Shown here in pieces: positions 34,226 to 62,431 of a stretch of 64,000 nt of DNA. The stretch comes from Prorocentrum cordatum (taxonomy: Eukaryota > Sar > Dinophyceae > Prorocentrales > Prorocentraceae). The notes beneath the pieces were generated by a model that made no database searches, was not told the DNA's origin, and worked only from the letters and a program-made list of their open reading frames with translations. Made by a program: the position numbers and the translations under genes. The stretch lies in the NCBI GenBank assembly GCA_963575745.1, contig CAUYUJ010000658.1, positions 465,001 to 529,000 on the forward strand, read 5' to 3'. The stretch's first letter is position 1. Each line of letters opens with the position of its first letter.

Positions 34226-35384
34226 TAGAGCTTCCCTTAGCTAGTTATAGCTGGAAGCTAAGAGTAATTCCGGCGCGCCCCAGAGCTAGTTGGCAAGAAA
34301 AATCTCGACGGAACTTTTGCTGACTTTTGCTCGGTTGAAAATTTTGTTCTCAAAATTTGACAATTCGTTAGAGCTCTAGTATTTTTTCCCGTGATATTCG
34401 ATCTTATTCCCGCTCGCCATCTTGATCTCAGCTCAATCGGGTAACTTTGAAGGCCAAAAAGCACTGTGGCGGGAACGGCCGTTTCGAGTCATCTTGATAC
34501 GCGCTGTCGGTTTTCTGAACATAACTCGAGCTCTAGGGCAGCTACAGAGCTGGTAAGCACAGCTTATGCATGCAGAATGATCTGGCGCGTTCGCCTGTTG
34601 AACCCAGAGGTCTGAACTCGGCCTGTGAGCCGAGCTAGCTCCGGAAACCTGTTCGTATTATTCGAGTCATCTTGACAGAAACTCTCGGTTTTCTGGTCTT
34701 AACTCGAGTTGTAAGACAGCTACAGAGCTGGCAAGCAAATCTATCGCAGTCAGAATCATTAGGCGCGTTCGTCTGTTGAATCTAGAGGTCTGAACTCGGT
34801 CTGGTAGCCGAGCTAGGTCCGCAAACCCATTCGTATTATTTGGATCATCGATAGGCGCCCTCGGTTTTTTTGTACTTAACTCGAGCCGTAGGGCAGCTAC
34901 AGAGCTCGTAGTCACAGAAATCTATTGGAAATCACCAGGCGCCTATGTTCGTTGACTCGAGAGCACTGAACTTGGCCTGCTGCCCGAGCTAGGTTCGCAA
35001 AACTATTCGTATTGTTCGAGTCATCCTGAGAAGTGCTGTCGGATTTCGTGCTGGGGGGAGGCTACAGTGCTGCTGGGGACAGCAATCGATTTAGAGACAT
35101 CAGGCGCACCGCCTGCGGAGACCAGAGCTCGGAACTCGTCTGCTGCCTGAACTAGGTCTGCGAAACTACTGTATTGTTGGAGTCATCCTGAGAGGTGCTG
35201 TCAGTTTTCTGCATTCAACTCGGGCTGTAGGGGGGCTGCAGGGCTGGTAATGATAGAAGTCGACTCGCAGACATCAGACGCGTCCGCCTGTCGCATTGAG
35301 AGGGCACAACATATTTACTATGAGTCGGAATGTTGGTAGGTCCTCGGTGTTCTCAACTTTCTCGAGCTGGAAGCTCTACGAGTC
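34226..35384 (+). repeat. Satellite cassette, plus orientation, upstream of LINE A
   Basis: M3 module (34,270-34,510), then about five 178-bp units containing CAGGCGCGTTCGCCTG-type and CTACAGAGCT words. It ends at GAAGCTCTACGAGTCT, where LINE A with its spliced-leader relic begins. Confidence 0.82.
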
Positions 35385-35406
35385 TCCGTAGCCATTTTGG
35401 CTCAAG
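35385..35406 (+). other. Dinoflagellate spliced-leader relic
   Basis: A T followed by CCGTA and GCCATTTTGGCTCAAG reproduces the 22-nt dinoflagellate spliced leader without mismatch, joined directly to GAAGCTCTACGAG. Trans-splicing adds this leader to nuclear mRNAs in dinoflagellates, so the LINE copy was apparently made from a trans-spliced transcript. Confidence 0.93.
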
Positions 35407-35612
35407 GAAGCTCTACGAGTCCCCCGGCGGTAAGAAAGGTTGGGGAAGCGGAGTTTACCTCCCGCTCTCCCCCGGCCTTGGCCCGTCGGGGGGCTCCTCG
35501 AGCTGCATCGTGCAGTCAGGGGTTTCAGTTTTGTTCTCCATACCTGAACTGTATACCACACATCCCAATTTTGTCTCTCGCTTGTGCGTTCTTGAGCATT
35601 GTTGTGGATTGA

Positions 35613-37112: not shown

Positions 37113-38424
37113 CGACGGCCACAGCGGATTCGGACCGCATCGTGGAATATCAGAATGAAGGGTGATGGAGCCGAAACATTGAATGCCTTGGGTTTCTTAA
37201 AACATGAGGGGATGGAACTTATCGGCCTCCAGGAGTGCCAGAATGTACCGTTGTACCTCGTGCACGAATTAGGGTATGAAGCCAAGTGGTCCACGCAACA
37301 TGTTCTTGGGGATGATGCTCGCGATCGCAGATGTATTGAGGGGAATGCAGGGGTTTTGATTGCAAATGGGTTGCAGGATAGCATTCTTGAGACTAGAGAG
37401 CGTAGAAGATTCGTTGTTGTTGCCCTGCGGGGTCCCAGAATCGGTGCTCTAATAGTTGCCTCATTGTATTTGCCGCATGTAGAGTTCTATGGGCGCTCAG
37501 CTGCCCAAATGGATCGTATGTTTACTTTCTATCAGGACATCTTGCTAGAGCTTGTTGAGATGATTATTGAGCTTAGGAAAAAGTTTGGGATAAAGGAGGT
37601 TGTAATCATGATGGATGCGAATGTTGAGGTCCACCAGGATGTCACCATTGATAGGGTGCAGGTCACGGGGAAAGGTGTGCAGGCTTCCACAAGTAAGAGC
37701 AGCCAGGGAGGGTTTGAGAAAATGCGTGAGAAGTACAGAGACTACATGAGTAGGAGCTTGTGCATGGCCATGGCACGTCTGCAGTTGACCCTGATAAACA
37801 CGCACGGTGAGAGATGTGCGACCTTCCGAAGTAGCATGAATACATATAAGGTCCTGGACTACATAGCTGTACCTAAGGATTGGTGTCACACTGGACTAGA
37901 CCCCAGATGCGATTTTGTCAAGCCGCTCGGAGATAAGAGAGTTGACCGTTGGAGTGATCATAAGATGGTTAGTTGTTTTCTCCCTGGACCCCCTGCTCGC
38001 GTTGGTAAAGGACCTCGTGTTCTTGGCAGCCTGGCGAGATGGAGACCCATTCCAGGGAAAGATGTGGAGGTGCGTCGTGTTATTGCTGAGCGTGTCCTGG
38101 GGATTTCGAACAGTGAGTGTGAGAGGAGAAGAACGACAAAAAGGAGGAGGGATAGAGAGGAGGAGAAGGTTGAGGACCAGGAGGGGCTGATGGAGCAGCA
38201 GGTGTGCAAGACTAGGTGGAGGACGATCTCTTTAGATATCTTCGAGGAGCGTTTGAAGGCTGGTGCGGTTGAGGACAAAAAGCTCTTCGAGCTGAAGACC
38301 TCGATTGGCAACGATCTGAAACTCTCGGAGGAGGAGAAGGAGGTTCGGGACTACCACTATGGGGTGCACAAGAGGTGGAAGAAGGGGGAGGTGGATGAGA
38401 AGGAGTTCAAAGATTCTCGGCGAA
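37113..38424 (+). pseudogene. LINE A ORF2, 5' part: APE-like endonuclease
   Basis: Same frame as ORF1. EEP motifs in order: ASWNI (37,137-37,151), GMELIGLQECQN (metal-binding Glu), IMMDANVEVH in place of GDFN, and WSDHKMVSCF at the end of the domain (about 37,951-37,980). A Lys/Glu-rich linker follows. The frame is lost at about 38,424, where 7 bp present in LINE D (TAGGTGG) are missing; the codons to 38,510 are out of frame. Role in the family: nicking the target site to prime reverse transcription. Confidence 0.85.
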
Positions 38425-41400
38425 TCGGGTCCGACGTGAACTTCGTAGGCGTATCTTGGAATATAAGTATCGGGATGAGGGTAAACCACACACAGTCGTC
38501 ACACACATGAAAATTGACGGTACCATGACTGAGAATCGGGAGTCCTGGAAAAAGGAAATCGCCAAAATTGCCCGGATGAAATACTCCAGTCAAACACTCC
38601 ATCAACAAAATGTAGAATGCTTGGCTCGACTTAAGCAGCGAGCAATCCAGCACACTCGACTCAATGCAGTTTCTTCTCCCATCACGATGGGTATTCTACA
38701 TAAAGCGAGAGCCCGCCTCAAGGTGGGCAAAGCAGTTGGCTATGATGGCATATCAGCAGCTCTTTTACGTAGTCTGTCTTGGGAGGCACTCAGAGTGGTC
38801 TTGGATTGTTTCCAACAGTTGTATGCTAGACGATTGCAGTCACCGCCGTCTTGGAGAAAATTATTAGCTACGCTCATTTTGAAGGATACGAAGAAGCCAG
38901 AGTTCACCAGTACGCGTACTCTGGCTCTCAATAGCGTGCTTTCGAAATGGTATATGGCTTGTTTGTGTATCTTACTCAACCGTCATGTTGAACAGAATAC
39001 GCCTCGGACTGGAATCAATTTGTATTTTCATGAGGGACGGAAATGCAGCGAGATAACAGCAGGATTGAAGAACTTGATTAGACATGCCAGACTCTGGGGT
39101 AAGCATGAGAATGCATGTGTGGGAGTTCTAGACGTTGAGTGCGCCTTCGACAACATCACGATACCGATGGCAGATAGAGCGATGTATGATATCAACGTTG
39201 ACCCAGAGCTGGCGTATGCGATTTTGGAGCAAAATGCAGATGTAACAGCGACGTTTCGATTTGGTCCAGTGGAATCAGAAAGCTTACCGTGGAGCTCATG
39301 TATTAAAACGGGGTCCCTTGAAGGCCCTGATATCTGGAATATTGTTACGATTGCATGTCTGGGCAAGGTTCTCTTGGACTGGGAACGAAGAGGTATAGGC
39401 CTGAAGCTATCACACGAGGCTGCTTCTATCACTATCTCGCACTTCATTTGGGCGGATAACTTTGTTTTGATTACTGACTCTAGATCAGCACTGAGGGAGA
39501 TGATCTGGCAGCTCACTGTACCACTGCATGCATGGGGACTCAGATGGAAGCCTACCTCGCTCGAGTATATGGACGTTGGCGCGCTGAAGAATGTGTTCGA
39601 CCCGCTCGTGGTTACCATGACACCACCAGGACTGGAGAGATTGGGAAGTTCCAGCTCAGGTGTTAGAAACCATATGTGTGGAAGCTCAAGCTCGGGTGTT
39701 AGGAACCATATGTGTGGAAGTTCAAATGGGGCTCTGGATGTGTCGCCATCTGAAGCTGTCAACCAGACCACTGTGGAACTCAAGCAGGTTGACGAGATCA
39801 TCGTCTTGGGCACAAAGCTGAATAGAACACTGGATGATTATCATGATATTCGATACAGACTGCAAAAAGGTATCTCAGCTTTTTGGCGGGATCGACGATA
39901 TTATCAGAGTATGGTCATTCCTTGGCGACGTAAATTCAAAAGATATGATGCAAGAGTGAGAGTTCAGATTCTTTATGGAGTTGAGGGTTCATCTTCTGAT
40001 ATTGGCGTATTGAGACTTCTACACAAGGAGGAGGGTAAGATGCTCTCTCGCATGTGCTGGCGCCAGAAGCGCAATGGAGAGAACTTCGCGACCTTCATGA
40101 CACGTATGTTTCGACGTGGGCGCTCGATGCTACACAAGGAAGGGAAACCGTCCTTGGTCCAGCTGTACCTGCACAAGCAGTTCATGTGGGCCAAGGATAT
40201 TGCCACGGAGTGCTTTGAAAATATGTCAGGCTCGCTGCAGGACTTGAGTATCCCTGCAACGGGAGGGTCTCAGTTGATTGGGAAGAGCGTGGAGGAGGAG
40301 ATGATGGAGGTGGAGGTGGAGGAGCCTAACAGGAGGAAGAGGAAGAGTGCTCTCATCAGGGAGGCAAAACGAGCTTGTGAAGGGTTGTCTCAGAACACGT
40401 CCAGGTTGCAGGCCGGGGTCCAGGAGAAGCAGGTTCGTTTCCCAGGGAGAAAGCTTCGTTTTCGTGAAGGGGAGCATGTTGACCGAGGTGCTCAAAGTAG
40501 GCTTCTCATGCTGCATGCAGGTTTTGAATGGACTGATAGGCGGGATGACTTTATTGCGACCCTGGACACACAGAGTGCACGGGAGGTGACGAGAGCCAGG
40601 GGACAGTCAACCAATCTTCTGGGTATGTGTCCGTGGGCCAGAGTGTTCGAAGAGGTGGCGGGGAAGTACTGGATCGACGGTATTGCTTGGGATGAGGCTA
40701 GCTGGATATTCTTTGTGAGGACTGTCTTGAAGGACGCTCCTGAGATGTTGAACCTGTGTGTATTGAAAGACCCCATGCCCTGGAAGGAGTCGGAGGAGGA
40801 GGAGATGACTAAGAAGCAGGAGGACCCAGATAAGTTGGCCAAACGTCTCATTGCTATATTCCAGGATCATACTGAATTTGAGTTCGTGCCAGGGAAGATT
40901 TCTGTGGAACTGATGGGGGATTCGCAATGTGTTATCAGGTGGTTGGAGGGCTTGAGTAGTATCACTAATAGAAAGTATGCTAACCGTGTGATGTGGGCGC
41001 AGGATACTACAAACGATCTAGCCGACAGATGCGGACTACGAGCTGCCAATTTAGGACGGAATGTGTGGAAGTGGGTGTATAGGGAGGGCAATACTCGTGC
41101 CGATGAATTAACGTGGGCCGCGCGGAGAGGTGAATGTTTCGAACATTATGACACTTGTTTTCTTCAGGATGTGAAAGATTGTAAGGTTGTGATCTCGGGG
41201 ATCAAAGGAGGCTTTGATGGTGGGAGATCGTTTCTTGGCGTAGGCTGTGGCTGGTATCTGGATTGTCATGTGTGTAGTGCTCTCCCCTCCTCTTCCTACT
41301 ATAATCAGACTGGCTGGCGCCAGAATGTAGGTCTCAAAAGCTTCCTTCTCCCAGCACAATGCACTATCACAGAGGCTGAGCTTGAAGCTGCCCGAGAGCT

Positions 41401-41449
41401 CCTTTTAGGAGTGGTGCATATCCTGAGTTTGTCAGGATATCCCCTGTAG
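38425..41449 (+). pseudogene. LINE A ORF2, 3' part: reverse transcriptase and permuted RNase H
   Basis: Open to TAG at 41,447-41,449. RT motifs: ARLKVGKAVGYDGISAALL, SWRKLLATLILKDTKKPE, a finger motif reading YFHEGRKC (LINE D has YGFHEGRKC, so one Gly codon is deleted here), motif A VGVLDVECAFDNI, motif B KTGSLEGPDIWNI, motif C HFIWADNFVLI (39,449-39,460) and motif D HAWGLRWKP. An 11-residue tandem duplication (SSSGVRNHMCG twice) follows the palm. The carboxy end holds RNase H motifs in permuted order: GDSQ (Asp 40,919-40,921), REGNTRADELT (Asp 41,102-41,104), GGFDGGRS (Asp 41,216-41,218) and TEAELEAARE (Glu 41,378-41,380). Confidence 0.85.
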
Positions 41450-42778: not shown

Positions 42779-44740
42779 CCGAATCGGCACCGGCTGTCGG
42801 GGATCAAGTTGGGATGCTGGAACCTCGACAAGGCTGGTGAGAACAACTTCAGCGGCGTGGAGGTGCTCAACCATATGCGTGCATGTGGCGGTCTGTTCGC
42901 GCTTCAGGAGGCCCAGAATATAATTCATGCAGATGCCGCCCGTCTCGGATGGCAGATCAAGCATAGTGCCTGCAGGAAGGCGGGGCTCCTCTTCGATCGA
43001 AGTTGGGCCTCGACGTCCAGGGAATTCGTTACTACTTTCTCTAGATTCGCCATTGGTGTGTTCGGTACTTCCATCTCGCCCTTGGTTGTCTGTTCTCTCT
43101 ACCTGCCCGATTCTCATCGAGAAGATTGCGAAGCGGAGTATGAACTCACGCTTGAGCGGGTGTCTGCCACTTTCAGAAGCCTCAGACACAGGTATAGCCA
43201 GGCCAGCTTTGTTTGTTTGCTTGACGGGAATGTTGAGCTACCGCCACTATGTGAGTTAGAATGTAATGGGGAATTGTATCTTGCCACGGGAGAGGGCTTG
43301 AGGAAGGAGGTCAGGACCTTGGCATGTGGTACGGAGGAGAGGGAGCGTATCAACAGGAGGAGGAGGATGATGGAGATGCTACTGGGGTTCATGCAGACCC
43401 ACATGTTTAAGGCGGCCAATACCTTTTCTGCAGATAGGCGTCCTACTTGGGAAGCGTGGGGCGAGCAACGTAGCTTCGGACGAATTCAGAAGGTGCTAGA
43501 TTACATCTTGGTGCCCAGCCGCTGGGAGTGCTCTGAGTGTGAAGTTTCTTGGTGTTATGCAAGAGGAGGAAGGAGGAATAGGAGTCGATTAAGTGATCAT
43601 GCACTTCTAACTGGACAGTTTGCATCGCCTGGCCGTGTGATTGTGCGACGTGACGACAGGGAGCGGGTGGAGCCGCCAGCGCCCTCTTTGGTAGGGTACC
43701 GATGCGTGACATGGGGCGATGAGTTCAATGCCAGGAGGAGGGTGGATCGGAGCTTGGGAGATGTTGTGTTTCGTGGGATTCCCGCACGTTCTCTCGAGAT
43801 GGAGCCAGCCAGCTTGCCTAGCACGCTCATTCAGTCTTTTGTTGCTGCTCCTGACGTGGACTTTACCACGGCGCAGAGTGGCAAGCAGAGGCCACCTGTG
43901 AGGCCGACCGAGTTGACTCGTCTTTTGGAGAGATGGCGGGAACTACCGTCAGACACGACTCCAGAGGAAAAGAAACGTTCCAGGAGTGAGATTAATCTAC
44001 ATCGCCGTCGATATCGCAGAGATGTTGCAGCCTGGAAGTGTCCCCTCAATCGTCGAAAGACTCGTCATCATATTAAACACTTGGTGGTGGAGGGCCAGGA
44101 GACGGAGGACAGGGAGGTTTGGAGGAAGGAGCTCGACAGTTTCTGCAGAACTAAGCTTTCATCGGATCAGATGCGGGAGGAGAACGCTAGTAGGATGGAG
44201 GAGATCAAGGAGAAGGCGAGGGAGGAGCTTTGTAGCAGCACGTATTCGACCATCACTATGGCGTTACTCGGACGTGGGCGGGCGCGCCTCCGTACACAAC
44301 GAGCCACAGGGCCAGATCGAGTACCGTGTGAGGTGTTAAAGTGTCACCCTTGGACGGTATTGCGCAACATCCGACGCCTGTTCGACGATATGCTACACAT
44401 GTGCACACCGTACCCCTCCTCATGGCGTGATATCCTCATCTCCTTTATGCCCAAGCTGCCTGGCATCACGGATCTTAGGGACGGTAGGCTTCTATGTATG
44501 TAGAACGCTATTGCACGATGGTATAGCACATGTATTGTTATCTTGGTGGAACAACATGTCGAGCGAAACGGTCTCTTTCGCCCTCTCGGACTTTATGGCT
44601 TCCAATCTAATTGCACCACGAACGAGATCACGGCGAGTTTGAAACACATCGGCCAGCATGCTTCTACATGGGGAAAGGGGAAACAGCACATCTGGCCAAT
44701 GCAGATATCCTACAAGCCTTCGACCATTGCACGGTAGCCA
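42779..44740 (+). pseudogene. LINE B ORF2, 5' part: endonuclease and start of RT
   Basis: Continues in the ORF1 frame after UGA: KLGCWNLDKAG (endonuclease start), GLFALQEAQN, VCLLDGNVEL and SRLSDHALLTGQF. RT begins with ARLRTQRATGPDRVPCEVL and PSSWRDILISFMPK. A TAG at 44,501-44,503 interrupts it, but homologous sequence (NAIARWYSTCIVILVEQHVE, LYGFQSN) goes on in the same frame until about 44,680, where a single-base-type frameshift moves coding to another frame. The only early non-AUG start is TTG at 42,809; the first in-frame ATG (42,875) lies inside the endonuclease. Confidence 0.82.
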
Positions 44741-46770
44741 ATGTTAGACGGGGTTTACAGCACGCGCATGTACCTTATCATCTTCAATATGCATTTCTTG
44801 ATCCACTATGCGATAGTGTGGGGACGGCTTGCCATGAAAGTATCGAGGTGGAGGGTGTGAGATGGGATAGATGTATTAGAACGGGCGGAGCCGAGGGACC
44901 CCTAGGTTTCAATCTTATTATTGCTGCGATGTGGCAGGAAACCTTCCGACAATGGGATAGACAGAACATAGGCTACCAAGTGTGTTTTAAAACTGGGGAC
45001 CCCATGGAGTCTGGCAAGTCGTCCTACACGTCGGTCGTCAATCACTTCGTATGGGCAGATAATTGCTACATCTTGGCACGAAGCAGGGAAGAATTGGCAC
45101 ACATGATTCACGACCTTACTGTTAGACTCCAAGATTTCGGCATGCGCTGGAAACCCTCAAGCTTGCTTTACATGGTCTTTGGAGCCGACGCTGCGAGAGA
45201 TGCAGAAGGGCAGATCCTATCTTCAGCCGACTTGCTTGTACCCTTCCTGAATGACGTAATGCGGTTCAGGCGTGTTACTGAGATGACGGTTCTAGGCGTC
45301 CAGTTGTTCTCTGATTATAAGTACTCCTCACACCTTGACGTGGACTCTAGGATTGAGGCGGCTCGTCGGACATTTTATTCCCAGGCAGGATATTTTCGGA
45401 ACAACAGCACGCCTCTTAAGGATAAGTTCCTACGGTACCAGCAAAAGGTCCAGAGTATTGCCCTTTTCGGTGCGGACGGCTGCACGGCCGACCAGGATAG
45501 CCTCCATACATTGCACGCGTTTGAGGGCAAGTGTTTATGCTTCATGCTTCGATGCCGCCGAGAACCAGACGAATCCCATGCTACATGGAACGAGAGAAGA
45601 TACAGCGTTGCCAGATCGAAGTTCGCAGAGGCTGGGTACCACAGCTTGGTCCAGAGATTTCTCCGAGCTCAGTGGCTGCTGGCAAAGGATGTCTCGGCAT
45701 ATGCGCAGAGGTTGTATCAGGGAGAGGACATGACGGACGAGCATAGAGCACGGAGTGATGCACGCATGTGTTTGATTGCCTTTGGAATAAGTTATGACAC
45801 GCTGCGCACACTTGAGGGAGAAGCCCTTCGTGCTTTCGGCAAGTGGAGGGAATGTGGAGTTATGAAACGCTGGAGGTCAGGAGGGCAAGCGATCGGACAA
45901 CGTTGTTGGCAGACACCCTTTCATGAGTTCTTTGGCCCACGGTGGTGGGAAGTGTTCCAAGATGGCCTTCATGCCTTCATGCAGTTTGCAGCTCATCAAT
46001 GTACACCCTCTATGCTCAAGCTTCCCCAGAAGAAATGCAAAGGTATCCATGATGGTAACTCCCCCGTCTTTCTGGCTGAACGAAATGAGGAGTATGTTGT
46101 TACAGATGACGTCTCTCCCGCTGCACGCCTGCGATTCAGTAAGAGATTAGCTATCCACAATATGAAGAGCACATGTTGGGACGTGACTTCAGGAGGCGTG
46201 CCGTTGGAGATCACAGGAGATTCTCTTCTTATCATTTGCTGGCTTTGCGGCCTCTGGAAGGCCGATAATCACTTATACCAGACACGTGTTGATAATATGA
46301 TTAATTCTTTGGAAGGAATGTGTTGTATGTATGGTGTCAGACCTGCTGAAGCAGGACGCGATCTTCTCAAGCATGAGTTTCGGGAATGGAGCGAGAAAGC
46401 CGACCTCCTTACCCACCAGGCCCGCGAGGGCCACCTATACACGAACGAACAGTACCAGTTGCAGCCATACGAACAGTCATGCTATGAACCTTGCCTCATC
46501 AAAGCGGGCTTTGATGGTGGTGTGTGCAGCCTGGGAGCAGGAAGTGGAGCTTGGATTCAGATTGGACTGCGTTCTCGATACTCCCATCTATCGCCCACCT
46601 CTTCCTTCTGTGAATCCCCACAGATTATCTTCAAGGACGTTTACGTTTGCTCCTTCGCTCTCCAAGACGGGTCCACGGTGACGGATACGGAACTCTCCGC
46701 TGCAGAGTGCGTTATTGCAGCACTCCCACGGGTTTTGCAGGCCTATTTTAGCGATAAGTTGTGTGATTGA
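44611..46770 (+). pseudogene. LINE B ORF2, 3' part: RT palm and permuted RNase H
   Basis: Reliable from about 44,680 to TGA at 46,768-46,770 (a second TGA follows at once). Motif A is ANADILQAFDH, motif B RTGGAEGPLGFN, motif C HFVWADNCYIL (45,052-45,063) and motif D DFGMRWKPSS. RNase H order is permuted: LEITGDSLL (Asp 46,219-46,221), EKADLLTHQAREG (Asp 46,402-46,404), KAGFDGGVCSLGAGSG (Asp 46,513-46,515), TDTELSAAEC (Glu 46,690-46,692). All four acidic residues are present. Confidence 0.83.
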
Positions 46771-46994: not shown

Positions 46995-48351
46995 AGGTTG
47001 ACGGTTTACCGCTGGCGCCCAGTGTGGCAACTTTTGGGTGGTTTTGCAAAAATTTGAAAGATATTTGATCATTTTTTGGAAAAAGCAGATGTTCACGCCG
47101 AGCACTGGCATATGAACTCCTCACAACAGCTCAGCTCTCTCGATTCGTTCTTGCATGAGTTGACTTCCGGGAACTGAGCAAATATGAACATCGAAAAAAT
47201 CGAATTTCAAGATTTTCGAAAAATCTCCATTGTTTGATTATGTGTCGATTCTCTGCACTCTTACTAGTGAGAGGAGCTCTACGAGGTTCCCGGCAGTGAT
47301 CAGGTTGACGGTTCACCGCCGGCGCCAGTTCCGGCGCGCTGGAGAGCTAGTTGGCAAGAAAAATCTCGACGGAACTTTTGCTGACTTTTGGTCGGTTGAA
47401 AATTTTGTTCTCGAAATTTGACAATTCGTTTGAGCTCTAGTATTTTTTCCCGTGATATTCGATCTTATTCCCGCTCGCCATCTTGATCTCAGCTCGATCG
47501 GGTAGCCTTTACTGCCAAAAAGCACTGCGGCGGGATCTGCCGTTTCGAGTCATCTTGATGCATTATCGGTATTTTGTACTTAACTCGAGCTGTAGGGCAG
47601 CTACAGAGCTGGTAAGCACACCTATCGCATTCAGAATCATCAGGCGCGTTCGCCTGTTGAATCTAGAGGTCTGAACTCGGTCTGCTAGCCGAGCTAGGTC
47701 TGCAAACCTATTCGTATTATTCGGGTGATCTTGATAGACGCCCTCGGTTCTCTGTACTTAACTCGAGCTACAGGACAGCTACAGAGCTGGTAAGCACTCC
47801 TATCGCATTCGGAATCATTAGGCGCGTTCGCCTGTTGAATCTAGAGGTCTGAACTCGTTCTGTTAGCCGAGCTAGGCTCGCCAACCTATTCGTATCATTT
47901 AGGTCATCTTGATCGACGCCCTCGGTTTTCTGTACTTAACTCGAGCTGTAGGGCAGCTACAAGCTCATAGTCACAGAAATCGATTGGGAATGATTAGGCG
48001 CGTTCGTGCGTCGAATCGAGAGCTCTGGACTCGGCCTGCTGCCCGAGCTAGGTTCGCAAAACTATTCGTATTCGAGTCATTCTGAGAAGTTCTCTCGGTA
48101 TTCTGCACTTAACTCGTGCTGGTCACGGAAATCGATTCTGAGACATCAGGCGCGTCCGTCTGTCGAACCCAGAGCTCGGAACTCGGTCTGCTGCTCGAAC
48201 TAGGTCCGAAACTATTGTACCATTCGAGTTGTTCGTTTTTTTTTGTTAGACTCATCCTGAGAGGTATGAAATCGCTTGGGCTGAAAAATTAGTTCTCTGG
48301 AATTTTCCTCACATCCCTACGAGTCAGGAAGCTCTACGAGTCCCCCGGCGG
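46995..48351 (+). repeat. Boundary palindromes, type II fragment and satellite cassette
   Basis: The right half of the palindrome ends at about 47,022. A type II fragment (47,023-47,285) runs to a palindrome at 47,288-47,322. An M3 module (47,340-47,560) follows, then four to five 178-bp units ending at CCCCCGGCGG (48,342-48,351), where LINE C starts. No gene. Confidence 0.78.
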
Positions 48352-49209
48352 ACTCGTAGAGCCGGAGGAGGAACTGGAGGACGAGGAAACTACATAAAGG
48401 AGAGGGGGGAGGAGATGATGGCTCGTCCGTTGTCGGTGAAGGAGTCTGAGAAGCTGGCCCAGAGATTGGCCTCGAACAATGAACAGGAGCCGACTTGGGA
48501 TCTGAGTGATGATGGGATCGGTCTGGAGCTGACGGGCGATTCGCTTCTTATCTGTAATTGGATCAACGGTCTCTGGAAGGTTGAAGGAGGAGAAGGAGGA
48601 GATGGGGCTTCTTATCGTAGGCGGGTTGCAAATATTATTTCTCTTTTGGAAGAATTGGAGGAGGAAGGAGTACGACCCCCCTCATGGGGCAATGACTTTA
48701 TTCGACACATATATCGGGAGAGTAATACAGTAGCTGATGAACTTACCCATTTAGCACGGGAAGGCCAGATATTCAGAGAGCTGTTCCACCACCATATCTT
48801 CCGTCCTGATGTTCAAGACAACTTTCGAGTTATCGGCCTCCGCGGATCCTTCGATGGCGGAGTGTGTGCCCAAGGTGTGGGCGTTGGTTGGTTTCTGCAG
48901 ATTGGATATATCCCTCGCTTCCATGATCCGTACCCTGACCCTGAGCATAGAGATAAGAGAGCTCGTGTAGTCTCCCTCTTCCCCCAAGCCTCCTCCCCTT
49001 GTCCAATTATATGGGAAGTAGTAGGGCGTTGTGCACAGGCACTCCCCTCCCATAGCAGTATCACTGACGCTGAGCTTTCGGGTCTCGAGGGCCTCTTGCG
49101 GGCCGCAGCCCAGGTGGCCCAAGACCTCCAGCTGCAGAGAGACTAGGTAGGCACTTAACGGGCGCTGGGGCGCTCGGTGCCTGGTCAGCCTCCCCCCAAA
49201 AAAAAAAAA
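48352..49209 (+). mobile_element. LINE C, 5'-truncated 3' fragment with poly(A)
   Basis: Starts after the palindrome left arm and ends with 12 A (49,198-49,209) directly against GGTTGACGG. The 3' UTR can fold: AGGCAC pairs with GTGCCT around GGGCGC/GCGCTC. Only the RNase H end of ORF2 is retained. It represents a third family. Confidence 0.85.
48415..49146 (+). pseudogene. LINE C ORF2 carboxy-terminal fragment: permuted RNase H
   Basis: Open from before ATG 48,415 to TAG at 49,144-49,146, 243 codons from the ATG. It contains the permuted set: LELTGDSLLIC (Asp 48,538-48,540), RESNTVADELTHLAREG (Asp 48,736-48,738), GSFDGGVCAQGVGVGWF (Asp 48,853-48,855) and TDAELSGLEG (Glu 49,072-49,074). No endonuclease or RT is left, so it is a dead fragment, although the frame itself is intact. 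Confidence 0.8.
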
Positions 49210-50615
49210 GGTTGACGGTTTACCGCCGGCGCCCAGTCTCGACGGACCTTTTGGTGACTTTTGGTCGGTTGAAAATTTTGTTCTCGAAATTTGACCATTC
49301 GTTAGAGCTCTAGTTTTTTTTCCCGTGATATTCGATCTTATTCCCGCTCGCCATCTTGATCTCAGCTCGATCGGGTACCTTTTACTGCCAAAAAGCGTCC
49401 CGGCGGGATCGGCCGTTTCGAGTCATCTTGATACGCGTTGTCGGTATTTTCTACTTAACTCGAGCTGTAGGGCAGCTACAGTGCTGGTAAGTACACCTAT
49501 CGCATTCAGAATCATCAGGCGCGTTCGCCTGTTGAATCCATAGGTCTGAACTCGGTCTGCTAGCCGAGCTAGGTCCGGAAACCTATTCGTATTATTCGAG
49601 TCAACTTGATACGCGTTGTCGGTATTTTGTACTTAACTCGAGCTGTAGGGCAGCTACAGTGCTGATAAGCACACCTATCGCATTCAGAATCATCAGGCGC
49701 GTTCGCCTGTTGAATCCATAGGTCTGAACTCGGTCTGCTAGCCGAGCTAGGTCCGCAAACCTATTCGTATTATTCGAGTCAACTTGATACGCGTGGTGGG
49801 TATTTTGTACTTAATTCGAGCTGCAGAGCAGCTACAGAGCTGGTAAGCACATCCATCGCATTCAGAATCATCAGGCGCGTTCGCCTTTTGACTCCAGAGG
49901 TCTGAACTCGGTCTGCTAGCCGAGCTAGGTCCGGAAATTTATTCGTATTATTCGAGTCATCTTGACAAACGCTCTCGGTTTTCTGTACTTAACTCGAGCT
50001 GTAGGGCAGCTACAGAGCCTATAGTCACAGAAATCGATTGGGCATTATCGGGCGCGGTTGTCTGTTGTATCGAGAGCTTTGAAATCGGCCTGCTGCCCGA
50101 GCTAGGTTCGCGAAACTATTCGTATTGTCCGAATCATCGTGAAAAGTGCTCTCAATTTTCTGCACTCAACTCGTGCTGGGGAGGGCTACAGTGCTGCAGA
50201 CCATAGCAATCGATTTGCACACATCAGGCGCGTTCGTTGGTCGATTCGAGAGCTCAGGACTTGGTCTGCTGCTCGAAACAGGTCCGCGAACTTATTGTAT
50301 TATTCGAGTCATCCTGAGAGATGCTGTCGGTTTTCGGCAGTTAACTCGGGCTGTTGGGGGGCTGCAGGGCTGGTAATCACATGAGTCGATTCGCAGACAT
50401 CAGACGCGTCCGCCTGTCGCATTGAGAGGTCTGAACTCGGTCTGATACTCGAACTGGGTTGCGAAACTGTTTGTTTTTTGTTAGAGTCATCTTGAGAGGT
50501 CTGAAATCGCTTGGGCTGAAAACTAGTCGTTCTCTGGATTTTTTCCCACACTATACACTGTCAGGAAGCTCTACGAGTCCCCCGGCGGTAAGAAAGGTTG
50601 ACGGTTTACCGCCGG
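49210..50615 (+). repeat. Satellite cassette with regular 178-bp units
   Basis: Palindrome right half, a 5'-truncated M3 (from CTCGACGGACC, 49,238), then units whose equivalent bases lie at 49,441, 49,619 and 49,797, exactly 178 bp apart, followed by more diverged units. It ends with a full boundary palindrome at 50,582-50,615. Confidence 0.88.
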
Positions 50616-52840
50616 CGCCCAGTTTGCCGGAAGCTTTTTCGGACCAGCTGCTGGGCCGGCCCGTCTTCTAATTTTACCCTCTAGCCCTCAGCGATCTGTC
50701 CAGGAAAAACTAACCCTGAGCTTACACATTGTCTCTTAATTCCGGGTCGGCAAACTAGCTCCACCCTGCGCCCGAATTCCTCTTAGCTCTCAGGCGAGGC
50801 CTGGAACGCTTTCGTAAAGCATCTCTGGCCCTGTGGGGAGCTCCCCTGCAGCGCCGCTGAAGCGCTGCCAGAAACGGTTCTATGCGTGCCGGAAGCTCCC
50901 CCGGACCAGCTGCCGGGTCGGGCGAGGCGCTGCGGGGAACGTGGACCGCCGTGAAGAATCTCCTGGCGGGCAGAACCATCGTTTGGTAGCATCCGAAACC
51001 CGGAGAGCGAAAAGACTGGCGCTGGCGGTAAACCGTCAACCTGATCACCGCTGGGAACCTCGTTGAGCTCCTTCCACGCGTGGGAATGCTGAGAGTCGAA
51101 AGAGAGAGCTTCCGGAGGCATTTCTCGGAGAAGGCAAACTTGTTTTTTCTCATGTCCACGTGAAGTTTGTTCCCCTCGAGTGCCTTGTCCTTTCTGACCG
51201 GCCCGACAGCACCTCTCAGGATGACCCGAACAAGAATTCTAATTCGGGCAGCAGACCGAGTTCCGAGATCTGGATTCGACAGACGGACGCGCCTGATGCC
51301 TTCGAATCGATTCCTGTAAGAACAAGCACTGTCGCCCCCTTCAGCGCGAGTTGAGTGAAGAAGACCGAGTGCACTTCTCAAGATTACTCGACCAATCCGA
51401 ATAGTGTCGCGATTCTAGATCGGGCAGCAAACTGAGTTCAGAGCTCTGGATTCGACAGACAAACGCAACTGATGATTCGAAATTGGGTTCTGTAAATATC
51501 AGCTCTGTAGCTGTCCTACAGCTCGAGTTAAGTACAGAAAATCGAACGTTTCTGTCAAGATGACTCGAATAATACGAATAGGTTTGCGGACCTAGCTCGG
51601 CTAACAGACCGAGTTCAGACCTCTGGATTCAACAGGCAAACGCGCCCAATCATTCTGCATCGATTAGCTGTGCTTACAAGCTCTGTAGCTGTCCCAAAGC
51701 TCGAGGTATGTTCAGAAAACCGTCAGCGCGTATCAAGGTGACTCGAAACGACCGATCCCGCCACATTGCTTTTCAATAGTAATATTCAGCCGATCGAGCT
51801 CAGATCAAGATGGCGAGCGGGAATAAGATCGAATATCACGGGAAAAAATACTAGAGCTCAAACGAATTGTTGAATTTTGAGAATCAAATTTTCAACCGAG
51901 CAAAAGTCACCAAAAGTTCCGTCGAGATTTTTCTTGCCAACTAGCTCTCCATCGCGCCGGAATTATTCTTACGCTTCAGCAACTAGCTTAGGGAAACTCT
52001 GCGAGTCATTCCTCCAGATCTATTACCATGAGAGCTCTACAAATGGTCGGGCGGGCCAACGAGCTCCGCCGTGCGCCCGAATTCCCCTTAGCTCATCTTG
52101 GCGAAGAGCTCCTCGAGGTACTAGTTCCACCCTGCGCCCGAATTCCTCTTAGCTGATCTTGCCGACGAGCCCTACGACGTACTTTCCTGCAGAACGCTAT
52201 GGGGGACCCCCTGCAGCGCTTCGGAATTGCTCCCAGGAGCGTGTCCACGCGTGCCTGCGCGGGTGCAAGAACACGTGGTCCCGTGCTGACAGCGCCCCCG
52301 AACCAGCTGCCTTCTCGGGCGAACTGCTGCAGTGGATCGTGGAGCGGCGGCGATGGGCTGCTGGCGGGCACCACTATCGCCTGGCTTCTAATCCAAAACC
52401 CTCTAGCTCTTAAAGCGGACATTGTCTCTGCTGGTCGGGTCGAGAAACGAGCTCCACCCCACCCCGGAATAACTCGTAGAGCTTCCCTTAGCAAGTTATT
52501 GCTGGAAGCTTAAGCGTAATACTACCTTGTAAAGCTCTTCGGCATCGATGAGCTAGAGGAAATCCGGCGCGGGGTGGAGCTAGTAACTCGTAGAGCTTCC
52601 TTTCGCTAGTTGCTAGAAGCTTAAGGGTAATTCCAGCGCGCTGAAGGGCTAGTGACTCGTAGAGCTTCCCGAAGCTAGTTGCTGGAAGCTAACGAGTAAC
52701 TCGTAGAGCTTCCCTCAGCAAGTTATTGCTGGAAGCTAAGAGTAACTCCGGCGCGCTGGAGAGCTAGTAACTCGTAGAGCTTCCCTTAGCAAGTTATTGC
52801 TGGAAGCTTAAGAGTAATTCCGGGGCGCTGGAAGAGCTAG
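50616..52840. repeat. Mosaic of M5, type II, reversed satellite/M3 and M6 modules
   Basis: M5-like fragments (50,625-51,010) lead to a reversed palindrome (51,021-51,054). A type II piece (51,060-51,190), reversed satellite units with M3 (51,190-51,945), an M6/M5 mixture (51,945-52,430) and reversed M6 (52,450-52,840, with CTCGTAGAGCTTCCCTTAGC about six times) follow. No gene. Confidence 0.65.
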
Positions 52841-55800
52841 TTGGCAAGAAAATTCTCGACGGACCTTTTGCTGACGTTTGGTCGGTTGAAAATTTTGTTC
52901 TCAAAATTCAACAATTCGTTTGAGCTCTAGTATTTTTTCCCGTGATTTTCGATCTTATTCCCGCTCGCCATCTTGATCTCAGCTCGATCGGGTACCTTTT
53001 ACTGCCAAAAAGCACACAGGCGGGATCGGCCGCTTCGAGTCATCTTGTCACGCGGTGACGGTTTTCTCAAGATAACTCGAGCTTCAGGACAGCTAAAGAG
53101 CTGGTACGCACAGCTAATCGATTCAGAATGTTCAGGCGCGTTCGCCTGTTGAAGCCAGAGGTCTGAAGTCGGTCTGCTAGCCGAGCTAGGTGCGCAAACC
53201 TATTCGTATTATTCGAGTCATCTTGACAGGCGCTCTCGGTTTTCTGTACTTAACTCGAGCTACAGGACAGCTAAAGAGCTGATACGAACAGAATCTGATT
53301 CACAATAATCAGTGGTCGTTGTCTGTTGAATCCAGAGCTCTGAACTCGGTCTGCCGCCCGATCTAGAATCGCAAAACTATTCGTATTGTTCGAGTCGCTT
53401 GCGAGATGCTGTCTGTTCTCTGCACTTAACTCGGGCTGCAGCTGGTAATCACTGGAATCGATTCGAAGACATCAGGCGCGCACGCCTGCGGAATCCAGAG
53501 CTCCGAACTCGGTCTGTTGCCCGAACTAGGTCCGCGAAACTATTCGTATTGTTCGAGTCATTCTGAGAGGTGCTGGCGGTTTCCTGCACTTAACTCGGGT
53601 GCAGGGGGGGCTGCATGGTTGGTAATCACAGGGATAGATTCAGAGACATCAGACGCGTCCGCCTGTCGCATGCAGAGGTCTGAACTCGGTCTGATACCTG
53701 AACTAGGTTTGTCAAACTATTCGTATTGTTCGAGTCATCTTGAGAGGTGCTGTCGATTTACGCGGGCTGTAGGAGAGCTACAGAGCTCGTACAGAAGACA
53801 ATCTAGAAGCATCGGGGGCGTTCGGCTGTTGCATCCGAGAGGTCTCAAATTGCCTGGGCTAAAAAACTATTTTTTCTCTGTAATTTCTTCCGACATTATA
53901 TGTTGTCAGGAAGCTCTACGAGTCCCCCGGCGGTAAGAAAGGTTGACGGTTTACCGCCGGCGCCCAGTTGGCAAGACAAATCTCGACGGAACTTTTGGTG
54001 ACTTTTGGTCGGTGAAAAAGTTTGTTCTCGAAATTCAACAATTCGTTAGAGCTCTAGTATTCTTTCCCGTGATATTAGATCTTATTCCCGCTCGCCATCT
54101 TGATCTCAGCTCGATCGGGTGAATATTACTATCGAAAAGCACTCTGACGGGATTGGCCGTTTTGAGTCATCTTCATACACGCTGACGGTTTTCTGAACAT
54201 AACTCGAGCTTTAGGACAGCTACCGAGCTGATAAGCACAACTAATCGATGTAGAATGATTAGGCGTGTTCGTCTGTTGAATCCAGAGGTCTGAACTCGGT
54301 CTGTTAGCCGAGCTAGGTCCGCAAACCTATTTGTATTATTCGATTCATCTTGACAGGAACTCTCGGTTTTCTGAACTTAACTCGAGCTGTAGGACAGCTC
54401 CAGAGCTGTTATTTACAGAAACCGATTCAGAATCATCAGTTGCGTTTGTCTGTCGAATCCAGAGCTCTGAACTCGGTCTGCTGTCCGATCTAGAATCGCA
54501 AGCCTATTCGAATTGGTTGAGTCATCTTGAGAAGTGCTCTCGGTTTTCTTCACTCAACTCGCGCTGAGGGGGGCTACAGTACATTGGAATCGATTCGGAG
54601 ACATCTGGCGCGTCCGCTTGTCGAATCGAGAGCTCTGCACTCTGTCTGCTGCCCGAACTAGGTCCACGAAACTATTCGTATTGTTCGAGTCATCCTCAGA
54701 GGTGCTGTCGGTTTTCTGCACTCAACTCAGCCTGTAGGGGGCTGCAGGGCTGGTAATGACAGGAGTCGATTCGCAGACATCAGACGCGTCCGCCTGTCGC
54801 ATTCAGAGGCCAAAAAATATTCACTATGCGTCGGAATGTTGGTAGGTGCTGTTGGTTTTCTTAACTTAAGTCGAGCTAGGAAGCTCTACGAGACTCCGGA
54901 CGGTAACCAAGGTTGACGGTTTACCGCCGGCGCCCAGTAATACCTCGTAGAGCTCTTCGTCGTCGATGAGCCAAAGGAATTCCGGCGCGGGGTGGAGCTA
55001 GTACCTCGTAGAGCTCTTCGGCATCGATGAGCTAGAGGAATTCTGGCGCGGGGTGGAGCTAGTTGGCCCACCCGGCCGAGGCGGACAATGTGGTGACTTT
55101 TCGGTGGTTGTCCGAATATGACTCGTAGAGCTTCCTAAGCTAGTTGCTGGAAGCTTAAGAGTAATTCCGGCGCGCTGGAGAGCTAGTTGGCAAGAAAAAT
55201 CTCGACGAAACTTTTGGTGACTGACTCGTGGAGCTTCCCTAAGCTAGCAGCTGGAAGCTTAAGAGTAATTCCGACGCACTGGCGAGCTAGTTGGCTCGAA
55301 GAATCTCGACGGAACTTTTGGTGACTTTTGGTCGTTTGAAAATTTTGTTCTCATAACTCAACAATTCGTTAGAGCCCTAGTATTTTTTCTCGTGATATTC
55401 GATCTTATTCCCGCTCGCCATCTTGATCTCAGCTCGATCGGGTGAATATTACTATCGGAAAGCACTGTGGCGGGATCGGCCGTTTTGAGTCATCTTGATA
55501 CGCGCTGACGGTTTTCTGAACATAACTCGAGCTTTGGGACAGCTACAGAGCTGGTAAGCACGGCTAATCGAGGTAGAATGATTAGGCGCGTTCGCCTGTT
55601 GAATCCAGAGGTCTGAACTCGGTCTGTTAGCCGAGCTAGGTCCGCAAACCTATTCGTATTATTCGAGTCATCTTGACAGGAACTCTCTGTTTTCTGTACT
55701 TAACTCGAGCTGTAGGACAGCTACAGAGCTGATATTTACAGAAACCGATTCAGAATCATCAGTTGCGTTTGTCTGTCGAATCCAAAGCTCTGAACTCGGT

Positions 55801-56235: not shown

Positions 56236-56285
56236 AACCAAGGTTGGGGAAGCGGGGTTTACCTCCCGCTCTCCCCCGGCCATGG

Positions 56286-56307
56286 CCCGTCGCCATTTTG
56301 GCTCAAG
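56286..56307 (+). other. Second spliced-leader relic (one internal mismatch)
   Basis: CCCGTC followed by GCCATTTTGGCTCAAG matches the leader except for an A-to-C change (and a C at the variable first base). It is again joined to GAAGCTCTACGAG, the same junction as in LINE A. Confidence 0.85.
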
Positions 56308-58025: not shown

Positions 58026-61000
58026 CGACGGCCACAGCGGATTCGGACCGCATCGTGGAATATCAAAATGAAGGGTGATGGAGTTGAAACATCGCATGCT
58101 TTGCGTTTCTTGAAACACGAGGGGATGGAACTTATCGGTCTCCAGGGGTGCCAGAATGTACCGTCGTACCTCGTGCACGAATTAGGGTATGAAGCTAAGT
58201 GGTCCACGCAACATGTTCTTGGGGATGATGCTCACGATCGCAGATGTATTGAGGGGAATGCAGGGGTTTTGATTGCAAATGGGTTGCAGGATAGCATTCT
58301 TGAGACTCGAGAGCGTAGAAGATTCGTTGCTGTTGCCCTTCGGGGTCCCAGAATCGGTGCTCTAATAGTTGCCTCATTGTATCTACCTCATGTAGAGTTC
58401 TATGGGCGTTCAGCCGCCCAAATGGATCGTATGTTTACTTTCTATCAGGACATCTTGTTAGAGCTTGTTGAGACGATCATCGAGCTTAGGAAAAAGTTTG
58501 GGATAAAGGAGGTTGTAATCATGATGGATGCGAATGTTGAGGTCCATCAGGATGTCACCATTGATAGGGTGCAGGTCACGGGGAAAGGTGTGCAGGCCTC
58601 CACAGGTAGGAGCAGCCAGGGAGGGTTTGAGAACATGCGTGAGAAGTACAGAGACTACATGAGTAGGAGCTTGTGCATGGCCATGGCACGTGTGCTGTTG
58701 ACCCTGATAGACACTCACGGTGAGAGATGTACGACTTTCCGAAGTAGCATGAACACATAAAAGGTCCTGGACTACATAGCTGTACCTAAGGATTGGTGTC
58801 ACACTGGACTAGACCCCAGATGCGATTTTATCAAGCCGCTCGGAGATAAGAGAGTTGACCGTTGGAGTGATCATAAGATGGTTAGTTGTTTTCTCCCTGG
58901 ACCTCCTGCTCGTGTTGGTAAAGGACCTCGTGTTCTTGGCAGCCTGGCGAGATGGAGACCAATTCCAGGGAAAGATGTGGAAGTGCGTCGTGTTATTGCT
59001 GAGCGTGTCTTGGGGATTTCGAACGGTGAGTGTGATAGGAGAAGAGCGACGAAAAGGAGGAGGGATAGAGGCGAGGAGAAGGTTGAGGACCAGGAGGGGT
59101 TGATGGAGCAGCATGTGTGCAGGACTAGGTGGAGGACGATCTCTTTAGATATCTTCGAGGAGCGATTGAAGGCTGGTGCGGTTGAGGACAAAAAGCTCTT
59201 CGAGCTGAAGACCTCGATTGGCAACGATCTGAAACTCACGGAGGAGGAGCAGGAGGTTCGGGACTACCACTATGGGGTGCACAAGAGGTGGAAGAAGGGG
59301 GAGGTGGATGAGAAGGAGTTCAAAGATTCTCGGCGTAGGTGGAATCGGGTCCGACGTGAACTTCGTAGGCGTATCTTGGAACATAAGTATCGGGATGAGG
59401 GTAAACCACGCACAGTCGTCACACACATGAAAATTGACGGTACCATGACAGAGAATCGAGAGTCCTGGAAAGCGGAAATCGCCAAAATCGCCCGGGTGAA
59501 ATATTCCAGCCAAACACTCCATCAACAAAATGTAGAATGCTTGGCTCGACTTAAGCAGCGAGCAATCCAGCACACTCGACTCAATGCAGATTCTTCTCCC
59601 ATTACGATGGGTATTCTACATAAAGCGAGAGCTCGCCTCAAGGTGGGCAAGGCAGTTGGCTCTGACGGTATATCAGCAGCTCTTTTACGCAGCCTATCTT
59701 GGGAGGCCCTCAGAGTGGTCTTGGATTGTTTCCAGCAGCTGTATGCTAGACGATTGCAGTCACCGCCGTCTTGGAGAAAATTACTAGCTACACTCATCTT
59801 GAAGGATACGAAGAAGCCAGAGTTCACCAATACGCGTACTTTGGCTCTCAATAGCGTGCTTCCGAAATGCTTTACGGCATGTTTGTGTATCTTACTCAAT
59901 CGTCATGTTGAACAGAATACGCCTCGGACGGGAATCAATTTGTATGGATTTCATGAGGGACGGAAATGCAGCGAGATAACAGCAGGATTGCAGAACTTGA
60001 TTAGGCACGCCAGGCTCTGGGGGAAGCACGGGAATGCATGTGTGGGAGTTCTAGATGTTGAGTGCGCCTTTGACAACATCACGATACCGATGGCAGACAG
60101 AGCGATGTATGATATCAATGTTGACCCAGAGCTAGCGTATGCGATCTTGGAGCAGAATGCAGATGCAACGGCGACTTTTCGATTTGGTCCAGTGGAATCA
60201 GAAAGCCTACCGTGGAGCTCATGTATCAAAACGGGGTCCCTTGAAGGCCCTGATATTTGGAATATTGTCACGATTGCATGTTTGGGCAGGGTGCTCTCGG
60301 ACTGGGAACAAAAAGGTATATGCCTGAAGCTATCACATGAGGCTGCTTCTATTACGATCTCGCACTTCATTTGGGCGGATAATTTTGTTTTGATTGCTGA
60401 TTCTAGACCAGCACTGAGGGAGATGATCTGGCAGCTCACTGTACCGCTACATGCATGGGGACTCAGATGGAAGCCTACCTCGCTCGAGTATATGGACATT
60501 GGCGCGCTGAAGAATGTCTTCGACCCGCTCACGGTTACCATGACACCACCAGGACTGGAGAGATTGGGAATTTCCAGCTCAGGTGTTAGAAACCATATGT
60601 GTGGAAGTTCAAGCTCGGGTGTTAGAAACCATATGTGTGGAAGTTCAAATGGGGCTCTGGATGTGTCGCCATCTGAAGCTGTCAACCAGACCACTGTGGA
60701 ACTTAAGCAGGTTGACGAGATCATCGTTTTGGGCACGAAGTTGAATAGAACACTGGATGACTATCACGATATTCGATACAGACTGCAAAAAGGTATTTCA
60801 GCTTTTTGGCGAGATCGACGATATTATCAGAGTATGGTCATTCCTTGGCGACGAAAATTCAAAAGATATGATGCAAGAGTGAGAGTTCAGATTTCTTATG
60901 GAGTTGAGGGTTCATCTTCAGATATTGGTGTTTTGAGACTTTTACATAAGGAGGAGGGCAAGATGCGTTCTCGCATGTGCTGGCGCCAGAAGCGCAACGG

Positions 61001-62372
61001 AGAGGACTTCGCGACCTTCATCACACGTGTGTTTCGACGTGGGCGCTCGATGCTACTCAAGGAAGGGAAACCGTCCTTGGTTCAGCTGTACCTGCACAAA
61101 CAGTTCTTGTGGGCCAAGGATATTGCCACGGAGTGCTTTGAAAATATGCCAGACTCGCTGCAGGACTCGAGCATCTCTGCAACGGGAGGGTCTCAGTTGA
61201 TTGGGAAGAACGTGGAGGAGGAGATGATGGAGGTGGAGGTGGAGGAGCCAAACAGGAGGAAGAGGAAGAGTGCTCTCATCAGGGAGGCAAAACGTGCTTG
61301 TGAAGGTTTGTCTCAGAACACGTCCAGGTTGCGGACCAGGGTCCAGGAGAAGCACACTCGATTTCCAGGGAGAAAGCTTCGTTTTCGTGAAGGGGAGCAT
61401 GTTGACCGAGGTGCTCAAAGTAGACTTCTCATGCTGCATGCAGGCTTCGAATGGACTGCTAGACGGGATGACTTCATTGCGACTCTTGACACACAGAGTG
61501 CACGGGAGGTGACGAGAGCCAGGGGACAGTCAACCAAGCTTCTGGGTATGTGTCCGTGGGCCAGGGTGTTCGAAGAGGTGGCGGGGAAGTTCTGGATCGA
61601 CGGTATTGCTTGGGATGAGGCTAGCTGGATATTCTTTGTGAGGACTGTCTTGAAGGACGCTCCTGAGATGTTGAACCTTTGTGTATTGAAAGACCCTATG
61701 CCCTGGAAGGAGTCGGAGGAGGGGGAGACGATTAAGAAGCAGGAGGACCCAGATAAGTTGGCCAAACGTCTCATTGCTATATTCCAGGATCATACTGAAT
61801 TTGAGTTCGTGCCAGGGAACATTTCTGTGGAACTGATGGGGGGTTCACAATGTGTGATCAGGTGGTTGGAGGGCTTGAGTAGTATCACTAATAGAAAGTA
61901 TGCTAGCCGCGTGATGTGGGCGCAGGACACTACAAACGATCTAGCCGACAGATGTGGACTACGAGCTGCCAATTTAGGACGGAACGTGTGGAAGTGGGTG
62001 TATAGGGAGGGCAATACTCGTGCCGATGAATTAACGTGGACCGCGCGGAGAGGCGAATGTTACGAATATTATGACACTTGTTTTCTTCAGGAAGTGAAAG
62101 ATTGTAAAGTTGTGATCTCAGGGATCAAAGGAGGCTTTGATGGTGGGAGATCGATTTTTGGTGTAGGCTGTGGCTGGTATCTGGATTACTATGTGTGTAG
62201 TGCTCTCCCCTCTTCTTCTTACTATAATCAGACTGGCTGGCGCCAGAATGTAGGTCTCAAAGGCTTCCTTCTCCCAGCACAATGCACTATCACAGAGGCT
62301 GAGTTAGAAGCTGCCCGAGAGCTCCTTTTAGGAGTGGTGCATATCCTGAGTTTGTCAGGATATCCCCTGTAG
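58026..62372 (+). pseudogene. LINE D ORF2: endonuclease, RT and permuted RNase H, one nonsense codon
   Basis: A single frame, 1,448 codons to TAG at 62,370-62,372, interrupted only by TAA at 58,758-58,760 (TAT in LINE A). Endonuclease: TASWNI, GMELIGLQGCQN (Gln-Gly here where A has the catalytic-type Gln-Glu), MMDANVEVH, WSDHKMVSCF. RT: YGFHEGRKC, VGVLDVECAFDNI, KTGSLEGPDIWNI, HFIWADNFVLI (60,372-60,383). RNase H in permuted order: GGSQ (61,842; Asp replaced by Gly), NTRADELTW, GGFDGGRS, TEAELEAARE. The Glu-to-Gly and Asp-to-Gly changes would each disable the enzyme, consistent with a dead copy. Confidence 0.88.
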
Positions 62373-62431
62373 GACTGGGTCTGGGGCTCCTGAGGAGTTT
62401 AACCCTGCCAGGACCCGCCTAGAACGCCTAG

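Follow-up and report, generated by a model that had tools for sequence, protein, structure and literature searches.

LINE elements of the window and their ORF2 motifs

The window, a 64,000-nucleotide stretch of a Prorocentrum cordatum contig, holds two copies of LINE A (37155-41449 and 58068-62372), one of LINE B (42809-46770) and a 3' fragment of LINE C (48415-49146). The ORF2 frames of these elements end in a domain that we read as a circularly permuted RNase H. The features are:

37155..38510, + strand: LINE A copy 1, N-terminal part of ORF2, its frame broken relative to 38456-41449; presumably the endonuclease region, judged by its motifs and not called by Pfam
38456..41449, + strand: LINE A copy 1, part of ORF2 with RT, connection and putative permuted RNase H
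40823..41446, + strand: LINE A copy 1, putative permuted RNase H at the C terminus of ORF2 (translation, AlphaFold2 model, homologues); stop codon 41447-41449
40898..41125, + strand: first half of that domain, the canonical second half (AlphaFold2 secondary structure, hhalign), with beta4 and its D (40919), alphaB, a long helix, beta5, R (41081), and alphaE with D (41102)
41186..41431, + strand: second half of that domain, the canonical first half (AlphaFold2; profile alignment in register, weak), with beta1 and its D (41216), beta2, beta3, and alphaA with E (41378)
42809..46770, + strand: LINE B ORF2 (42809-44503 and 44611-46770), with an intact 1330-aa relative in the genome
46132..46767, + strand: LINE B, putative permuted RNase H; stop codon 46768-46770
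48442..49143, + strand: LINE C, putative permuted RNase H; the element is present as a 3' fragment (ORF 48415-49146)
58068..62372, + strand: LINE A copy 2, ORF2 (58068-58760 and 58878-62372)
61746..62369, + strand: LINE A copy 2, putative permuted RNase H with G in place of the first catalytic D

LINE A consists of an upstream frame (ORF1) of about 503 aa followed by an ORF2 with an RT domain, which in other LINE A copies is uninterrupted at 1448 aa. Open ORF2 frames among the genome copies measure 1448 aa in A (1455-1468 in variants), 1412-1414 aa in the related family A' (one 1323), 1330 aa in B and 1317 aa in B' (1341 in one run-on copy). Pfam finds RVT_1 in all four ORF2s searched (E 6e-8 to 5e-5), above its cut-off in A alone, with one further non-significant match in B'; it calls neither RNase_H nor Exo_endo_phos in the four. 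The N terminus of ORF2 shows motifs of an APE-type endonuclease.

The canonical order of RNase H motifs is DG, E, DS, AD; in LINE A, B and C it is DS, R..AD, DG, E. Complete members read G-D-S, then R-E-x-N-x-x-A-D, then F-D-G-G, then a helix with a conserved E. The acidic codons of LINE A are the D of GDS (40919), the D of TRAD (41102), the D of FDGG (41216) and the E of AEL (41378); by translation and motif position, those of LINE B (46219, 46402, 46513, 46690) and LINE C (48538, 48736, 48853, 49072) follow in the same order. A sequence-only reading of this DNA had proposed these 12 positions, and in the translations every one falls on the named acidic codon. The catalytic D, E, D, D of RNase H type 1 are present as D132, E186, D33 and D94 of the LINE A domain, all invariant or nearly so. 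The fifth catalytic residue is an arginine (R87), which replaces the His of the catalytic loop and stands seven residues before D94, a spacing shared with canonical archaeal-type sequences. The permuted order also holds in LINE A copy 2, where the first D is changed to G (GGS, codon 61842). Its frame from RT to the end is open despite the loss of this Asp.

With a profile built from the four domains of the window we found 20 homologous proteins in a collection of 5.8 billion sequences. Twelve have the complete permuted order, which makes the DS-AD-DG-AE arrangement described in the sequence-only reading more than a chance occurrence; none of the 20 has DG, AE, DS, AD, and the four window copies and 12 complete homologues all run DS-AD-DG-E. 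Eleven of the 12 were identified by a motif script (permuted order in 15 of 24 rows, namely these 11 and the four window copies), and P0013 was added from its alignment row, in which the real DG motif sits at the permuted place and a stray FDGG lies upstream. The other eight lack one or more motifs through truncated ends, a frame change (P0023) or a shortened gene model (P0026). The homologues come from environmental contigs, from Prorocentrum cordatum (P0017, P0020, P0026) and from EukProt entries labelled Pyramimonas, a prasinophyte alga (P0021, P0025). By eye, P0021 very closely resembles the B' element of this genome, which transfer, common descent or contamination could each explain. Queries with the single protein P0003 (residues 935-1164 and 180-1164) returned no homologues, and no relative was found in viral contigs or in a first scan of genome contigs.

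We also scanned the host genome itself (4.13 Gb, 21,875 contigs), where 5304 candidates for A and 5395 for B passed a loose first look, and scored the best 150 of each. An in-frame stop occurred in 12 of 150 scored candidate rows, a best-first list biased to intact copies. The proposal that the order is conserved across three diverged families was borne out, and the same order is found in A' and B'.

Predicted fold and homology of the two halves

We predicted the structure of the LINE A domain with AlphaFold2 (one prediction for this one family, from a 22-row alignment and no templates). The model is a single compact unit (mean pLDDT 89.9, pTM 0.87). It begins with a helix (2-14), a strand (26-32) ending just before D33, and helices at 35-41 and 50-70; continues with strands 72-74 and 82-84, a helix (87-101) bearing R87 and D94, and a linker with a strand (106-109) and a helix (114-118); and closes with strands 122-136 (containing D132), 139-152 and 165-176 and a helix (182-203) bearing E186. 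The predicted order of elements is beta4-alphaB-beta5-alphaE-beta1-beta2-beta3-alphaA. All of the RNase H type 1 elements (beta1-3, alphaA, beta4, alphaB, beta5 and alphaE) are therefore predicted, in rotated order; we assigned them because of the order of the elements, the placement of the motifs and the homology of the first half. In the predicted structure, the LINE A domain is an RNase H cut between alphaA and beta4, with the old termini joined by a linker, and D33, D94, D132 and E186 would meet in space once it folds. A structure prediction was among the checks that the sequence-only reading had proposed, and it returned an RNase H-like alpha/beta fold with its strands in permuted order.

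Sequence comparison speaks most clearly for the DS-AD half. Searched against the PDB, the family profile had five matches at E<=10, each of them either an RNase H entry or the ST0753 protein of Sulfolobus: 3u3g (0.01), 4h8k (0.087), 3aly (0.78), 2ehg (0.86) and 4e19 (1.7). Chain residues 68-134 of 3u3g and 4h8k, the second half, align to family positions 58-134; residues 73-127 of 3aly and 2ehg, again the second half, align to 64-130; and residues 134-175 of 4e19 align to 62-103. The Pfam family RVT_3 also matched 9 of 22 family members, weakly (best 0.0014). We then compared the family with a profile of 83 canonical archaeal-type sequences, three from plasmid records and 80 from genome contigs (viral contigs gave no match to canonical RNase H, and the single phage record found was left out). 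In native order, hhalign matched family residues 26-100 to canonical residues 60-123 with a probability of 97.2%. When the family profile was duplicated in tandem, the best alignment crossed the junction, pairing residues 130-299 with canonical residues 3-123, as expected of a circular permutation; only 2 of 200 shuffles of the columns of the second half reached template residue 10 or less in this set-up. With 29 rows, the tandem alignment lost its junction crossing at default settings.

Other comparisons involving the DG-AE half were less decisive. Aligned alone to canonical RNase H, it scored 14.9 in hhalign (P 0.05), a value reached by 11 of 200 column shuffles. With its halves simply put into canonical order, the profile aligned to canonical residues 61-123 at default settings and to 1-127 solely with a loosened setting, and 3 of 200 shuffles reached the canonical start at default. 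We left total score out as evidence, since the rearranged and duplicated profiles gain nothing beyond shuffles (191 and 169 of 200, respectively, reach the observed value). Rearranging single sequences barely changed the Pfam E value, from 0.052 to 0.035 for A and from 0.067 to 0.041 for C, with no match either way for B. At loose settings the N-terminal helix KLAKRL runs into the alphaA region in hhalign, and we considered it as a possible vestigial alphaA. The sequence case for homology of the DG-AE half is thus suggestive, and it is the structural prediction that carries the identity of this half.

A canonical RNase H elsewhere in ORF2 would offer another source for these motifs, as the sequence-only reading had pointed out. 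Save for the run-on B' copy, the ORF2 frames stop shortly after alphaA and hold no second DS-AD half beyond it. Run on six ORF2s (A, A', B and B'), half-domain HMMs gave no credible match to the canonical N-half, and the C-half matched the permuted site, with no match below E 0.05 outside it; none of the six thus holds a detectable canonical RNase H.

Taken with the predicted fold and the profile alignments, the lack of a detected canonical N-half supports the circular permutation proposed in the sequence-only reading, and neither of the two refuting outcomes named there was seen. We consider it very likely that ORF2 ends in a genuine circular permutant of a type 1 RNase H of archaea-like kind, predicted to be functional. 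The chain would enter at beta4 and pass through alphaB, beta5 and alphaE; a linker of about 20 residues would bridge the former C and N termini; and beta1-beta2-beta3 and then alphaA would close the chain, where ORF2 ends. So folded, the domain would rebuild the standard D-E-D-D(+R) two-metal site.

Conservation, selection and alternative readings

All of 41 domain rows keep residues D33, R87, D94, D132 and E186. The rows represent 39 distinct places in the genome (two places were fetched twice, and one is window copy 1); they were picked as best-scoring or open-frame and are biased to intact copies. Window copy 2, with G for D33, is an exception outside this set. Among the non-gap positions of 29 homologue and family rows, conservation is 22/23 for D33, 27/27 for R87, 26/27 for D94, 28/28 for D132 and 28/28 for E186.

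We estimated dN/dS by pooled pairwise Nei-Gojobori comparison of nine open A copies and six A' copies, which were picked for open ORFs and whose pairs are not independent. Among A copies the values were 0.16 for EN, 0.15 for the EN-RT linker, 0.10 for RT, 0.26 for the connection, 0.09 for the linker and 0.21 for RNase H, within which the DS-AD half gave 0.09 and the DG-AE half 0.40. Among A' copies they were 0.21 for EN, 0.14 for RT, 0.19 for the connection, 0.39 for the linker and 0.17 for RNase H (0.19 in the DS-AD half, 0.14 in the DG-AE half). By this measure the RNase H of A and A' is under purifying selection, constrained like the rest of ORF2 and not more. Together with the conserved catalytic residues, this supports the view, offered in the sequence-only reading, that the domain is probably functional.

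During target-primed reverse transcription, a LINE-encoded RNase H would remove the RNA from its hybrid with the cDNA. The conservation of these residues fits such a role in retrotransposition, in which the permuted domain would strip the RNA strand of the RNA:DNA hybrid, with catalysis and role both inferred.

The permuted fold could also be real and its RNase function gone, leaving a conserved structural or nucleic-acid-binding remnant. We think this improbable. Activity is a prediction, window copy 2 has lost its first D, Pfam does not recognise the domain, and it is under no stronger selection than the other regions of ORF2. Against a remnant, however, stand a dN/dS of about 0.2 and the retention of D, R, D, D and E in 41 of 41 rows (39 places, in a biased sample), at positions that are nearly invariant in the 29 homologue and family rows as well.

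It is very unlikely that two unrelated adjoining domains, or a canonical RNase H elsewhere, mimic the motif order by chance. The weak similarity of the second half alone to canonical RNase H is what such a reading would draw on, but the prediction is of one compact domain (pTM 0.87), in every family the complete rows conserve the motifs together, and the half-domain searches described above detected no other RNase H in the six ORF2s. A domain swap, in which each half pairs with its counterpart on a second ORF2 molecule, is compatible with the sequence; the compact and confident monomer prediction speaks against it, and we give it only a slight chance. An assembly or annotation artefact, or a local rearrangement of one element, can practically be dismissed: no supporting point was found for it, and it is already contradicted by the recurrence of the permuted order in A, A', B, B', C, environmental contigs and Prorocentrum cordatum proteins.

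Related RNases H, possible origin and insertion sites

The RNase H of I-group LINEs lies downstream of RT in canonical order, and that of plant L1 elements is C-terminal. By its D-E-D-R-D residues and its best, if weak, PDB matches, to the LC11 and Sulfolobus RNases H, the domain described here looks archaea-like, so that the RNase H of I-clade elements need not be its closest comparison. Sulfolobus tokodaii (2ehg, 3aly) and LC11 (3u3g) RNases H match it over the DS-to-AD half, but these are stand-alone enzymes of canonical topology that align collinearly over a single half. I-group LINEs share with our elements the presence of an RNase H in a LINE and differ in its canonical order.

The literature lists I, R1, Tad1, Loa and Ingi as I-group LINEs with RNase H (PMC4640811), and describes archaea-like RNase H (aRNH) in plant L1 and in oomycete LINEs and LTR elements, with plant and oomycete LINEs held to have acquired it independently (PMC5348765, PMC4640811). 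These aRNHs resemble the permuted domain as LINE-acquired RNases H with D-E-D-R-D, Arg in place of His and the seven-residue spacing from R to D; they are, however, aligned there in the canonical order D-E-D-R/H-D, whereas the halves are swapped here, and the RNase H of oomycete Utopia lies upstream of RT. SymbioLINE of Symbiodinium is likewise a dinoflagellate LINE with endonuclease and RT (PMC5890265). The legend of Fig. 1e in that paper shows canonical Pfam RNase_H in DNMT-bearing retrotransposons, LINE and DIRS not being told apart, and mentions no permutation.

The sequence-only reading knew of no permuted RNase H in LINEs, and we found no paper describing a permuted RNase H among the matches listed from titles and abstract openings in the open-licence PMC literature, a body to which subscription papers and preprints do not belong. 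The main text of a survey of the RNase H-like superfamily (PMC3985635) contains neither "permut" nor "circular". In the parts seen, other matches use permutation in other senses (PMC2628886, PMC3150331, PMC4686048, PMC7824862, PMC3710099, PMC4432964, PMC2848206, PMC5408684, PMC3578095, PMC11602121), among them a permuted RT thumb, not RNase H (PMC10830420).

The divergence of RT and RNase H is roughly parallel, with identities of 36% and 31%, respectively, between A and B, 70% and 60% between B and B', and 47% and 55% between A and A'. On these identities, the RNase H seems to have accompanied the RT from before the split of these families. Its origin may lie in a tandem duplication of a C-terminal RNase H whose outer halves were lost before A, B and C diverged, and the most economical route would be a stop inside the second RNase H copy together with erosion of the start of the first.

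A wider claim, which we think probable and hold with less assurance than the permutation itself, is that this is an active natural permutant, the first for the type 1 RNase H fold, that pre-dates at least three LINE families, and is maintained by selection in many copies of this genome and in other algae as well. RNase H is a textbook enzyme and among the best-studied protein folds. If the claim is true, a retrotransposon enzyme can bear new termini between alphaA and beta4, and a natural permutant under selection would offer a ready-made test of protein topology and of how retrotransposons gain domains. The swap of its halves would also explain why standard domain searches overlook this RNase H (Pfam called it in none of four ORF2s), and RNase H may consequently be under-counted in protist LINEs.

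LINEs with the permuted domain seem to insert at a specific sequence. LINE A, B and C share the 3' target AAGGTTGACGGTTTACCGCCGGCGCCCAGT with 0-2 mismatches (junctions at 41513, 46994, 49208 and 62436), and this target is part of an inverted repeat (CCGGCGGTAA...TTTACCGCCGG). Similar target sites occur without a LINE at 24779 (- strand), 29378, 50594, 53939, 54909 and 63379. Elsewhere in the genome, the target lies 66-74 nt after ORF2 in 15 of 16 A/A' loci (L104-L119). A second set of 20 loci (L084-L103) includes window copy 1 (L086) and one place shared with the first set (L102, the same as L104); seven of the 20, read on the wrong strand, are set aside as uninformative, and among the other 13 loci the target is at +63 in ten and at +25 in one, and is absent in two (L092, L101).

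At the 5' ends of both LINE A copies (35386-35406 and 56287-56307) stands the dinoflagellate spliced leader sequence, with no mismatch in one copy and one in the other, where 0.01 matches are expected by chance. This suggests that LINE transcripts can acquire the leader by trans-splicing and that it returns to DNA when they are copied. The leader lies just upstream of ORF1 in one of the 16 A/A' loci (L106) and elsewhere in L116.

Arrays of a tandem repeat of about 177 nt adjoin the LINEs of the window (34288-35432, 47349-48206, 49222-50455, 52839-54938, 55289-56269 and 62429-63408), and the repeat unit is matched in all 16 A/A' loci. At the start of the window, positions 1-11661 of the - strand hold an open frame of 3887 aa in which, by eye, segments resemble a Helitron-like helicase, an endonuclease/exonuclease/phosphatase and a ubiquitin protease.
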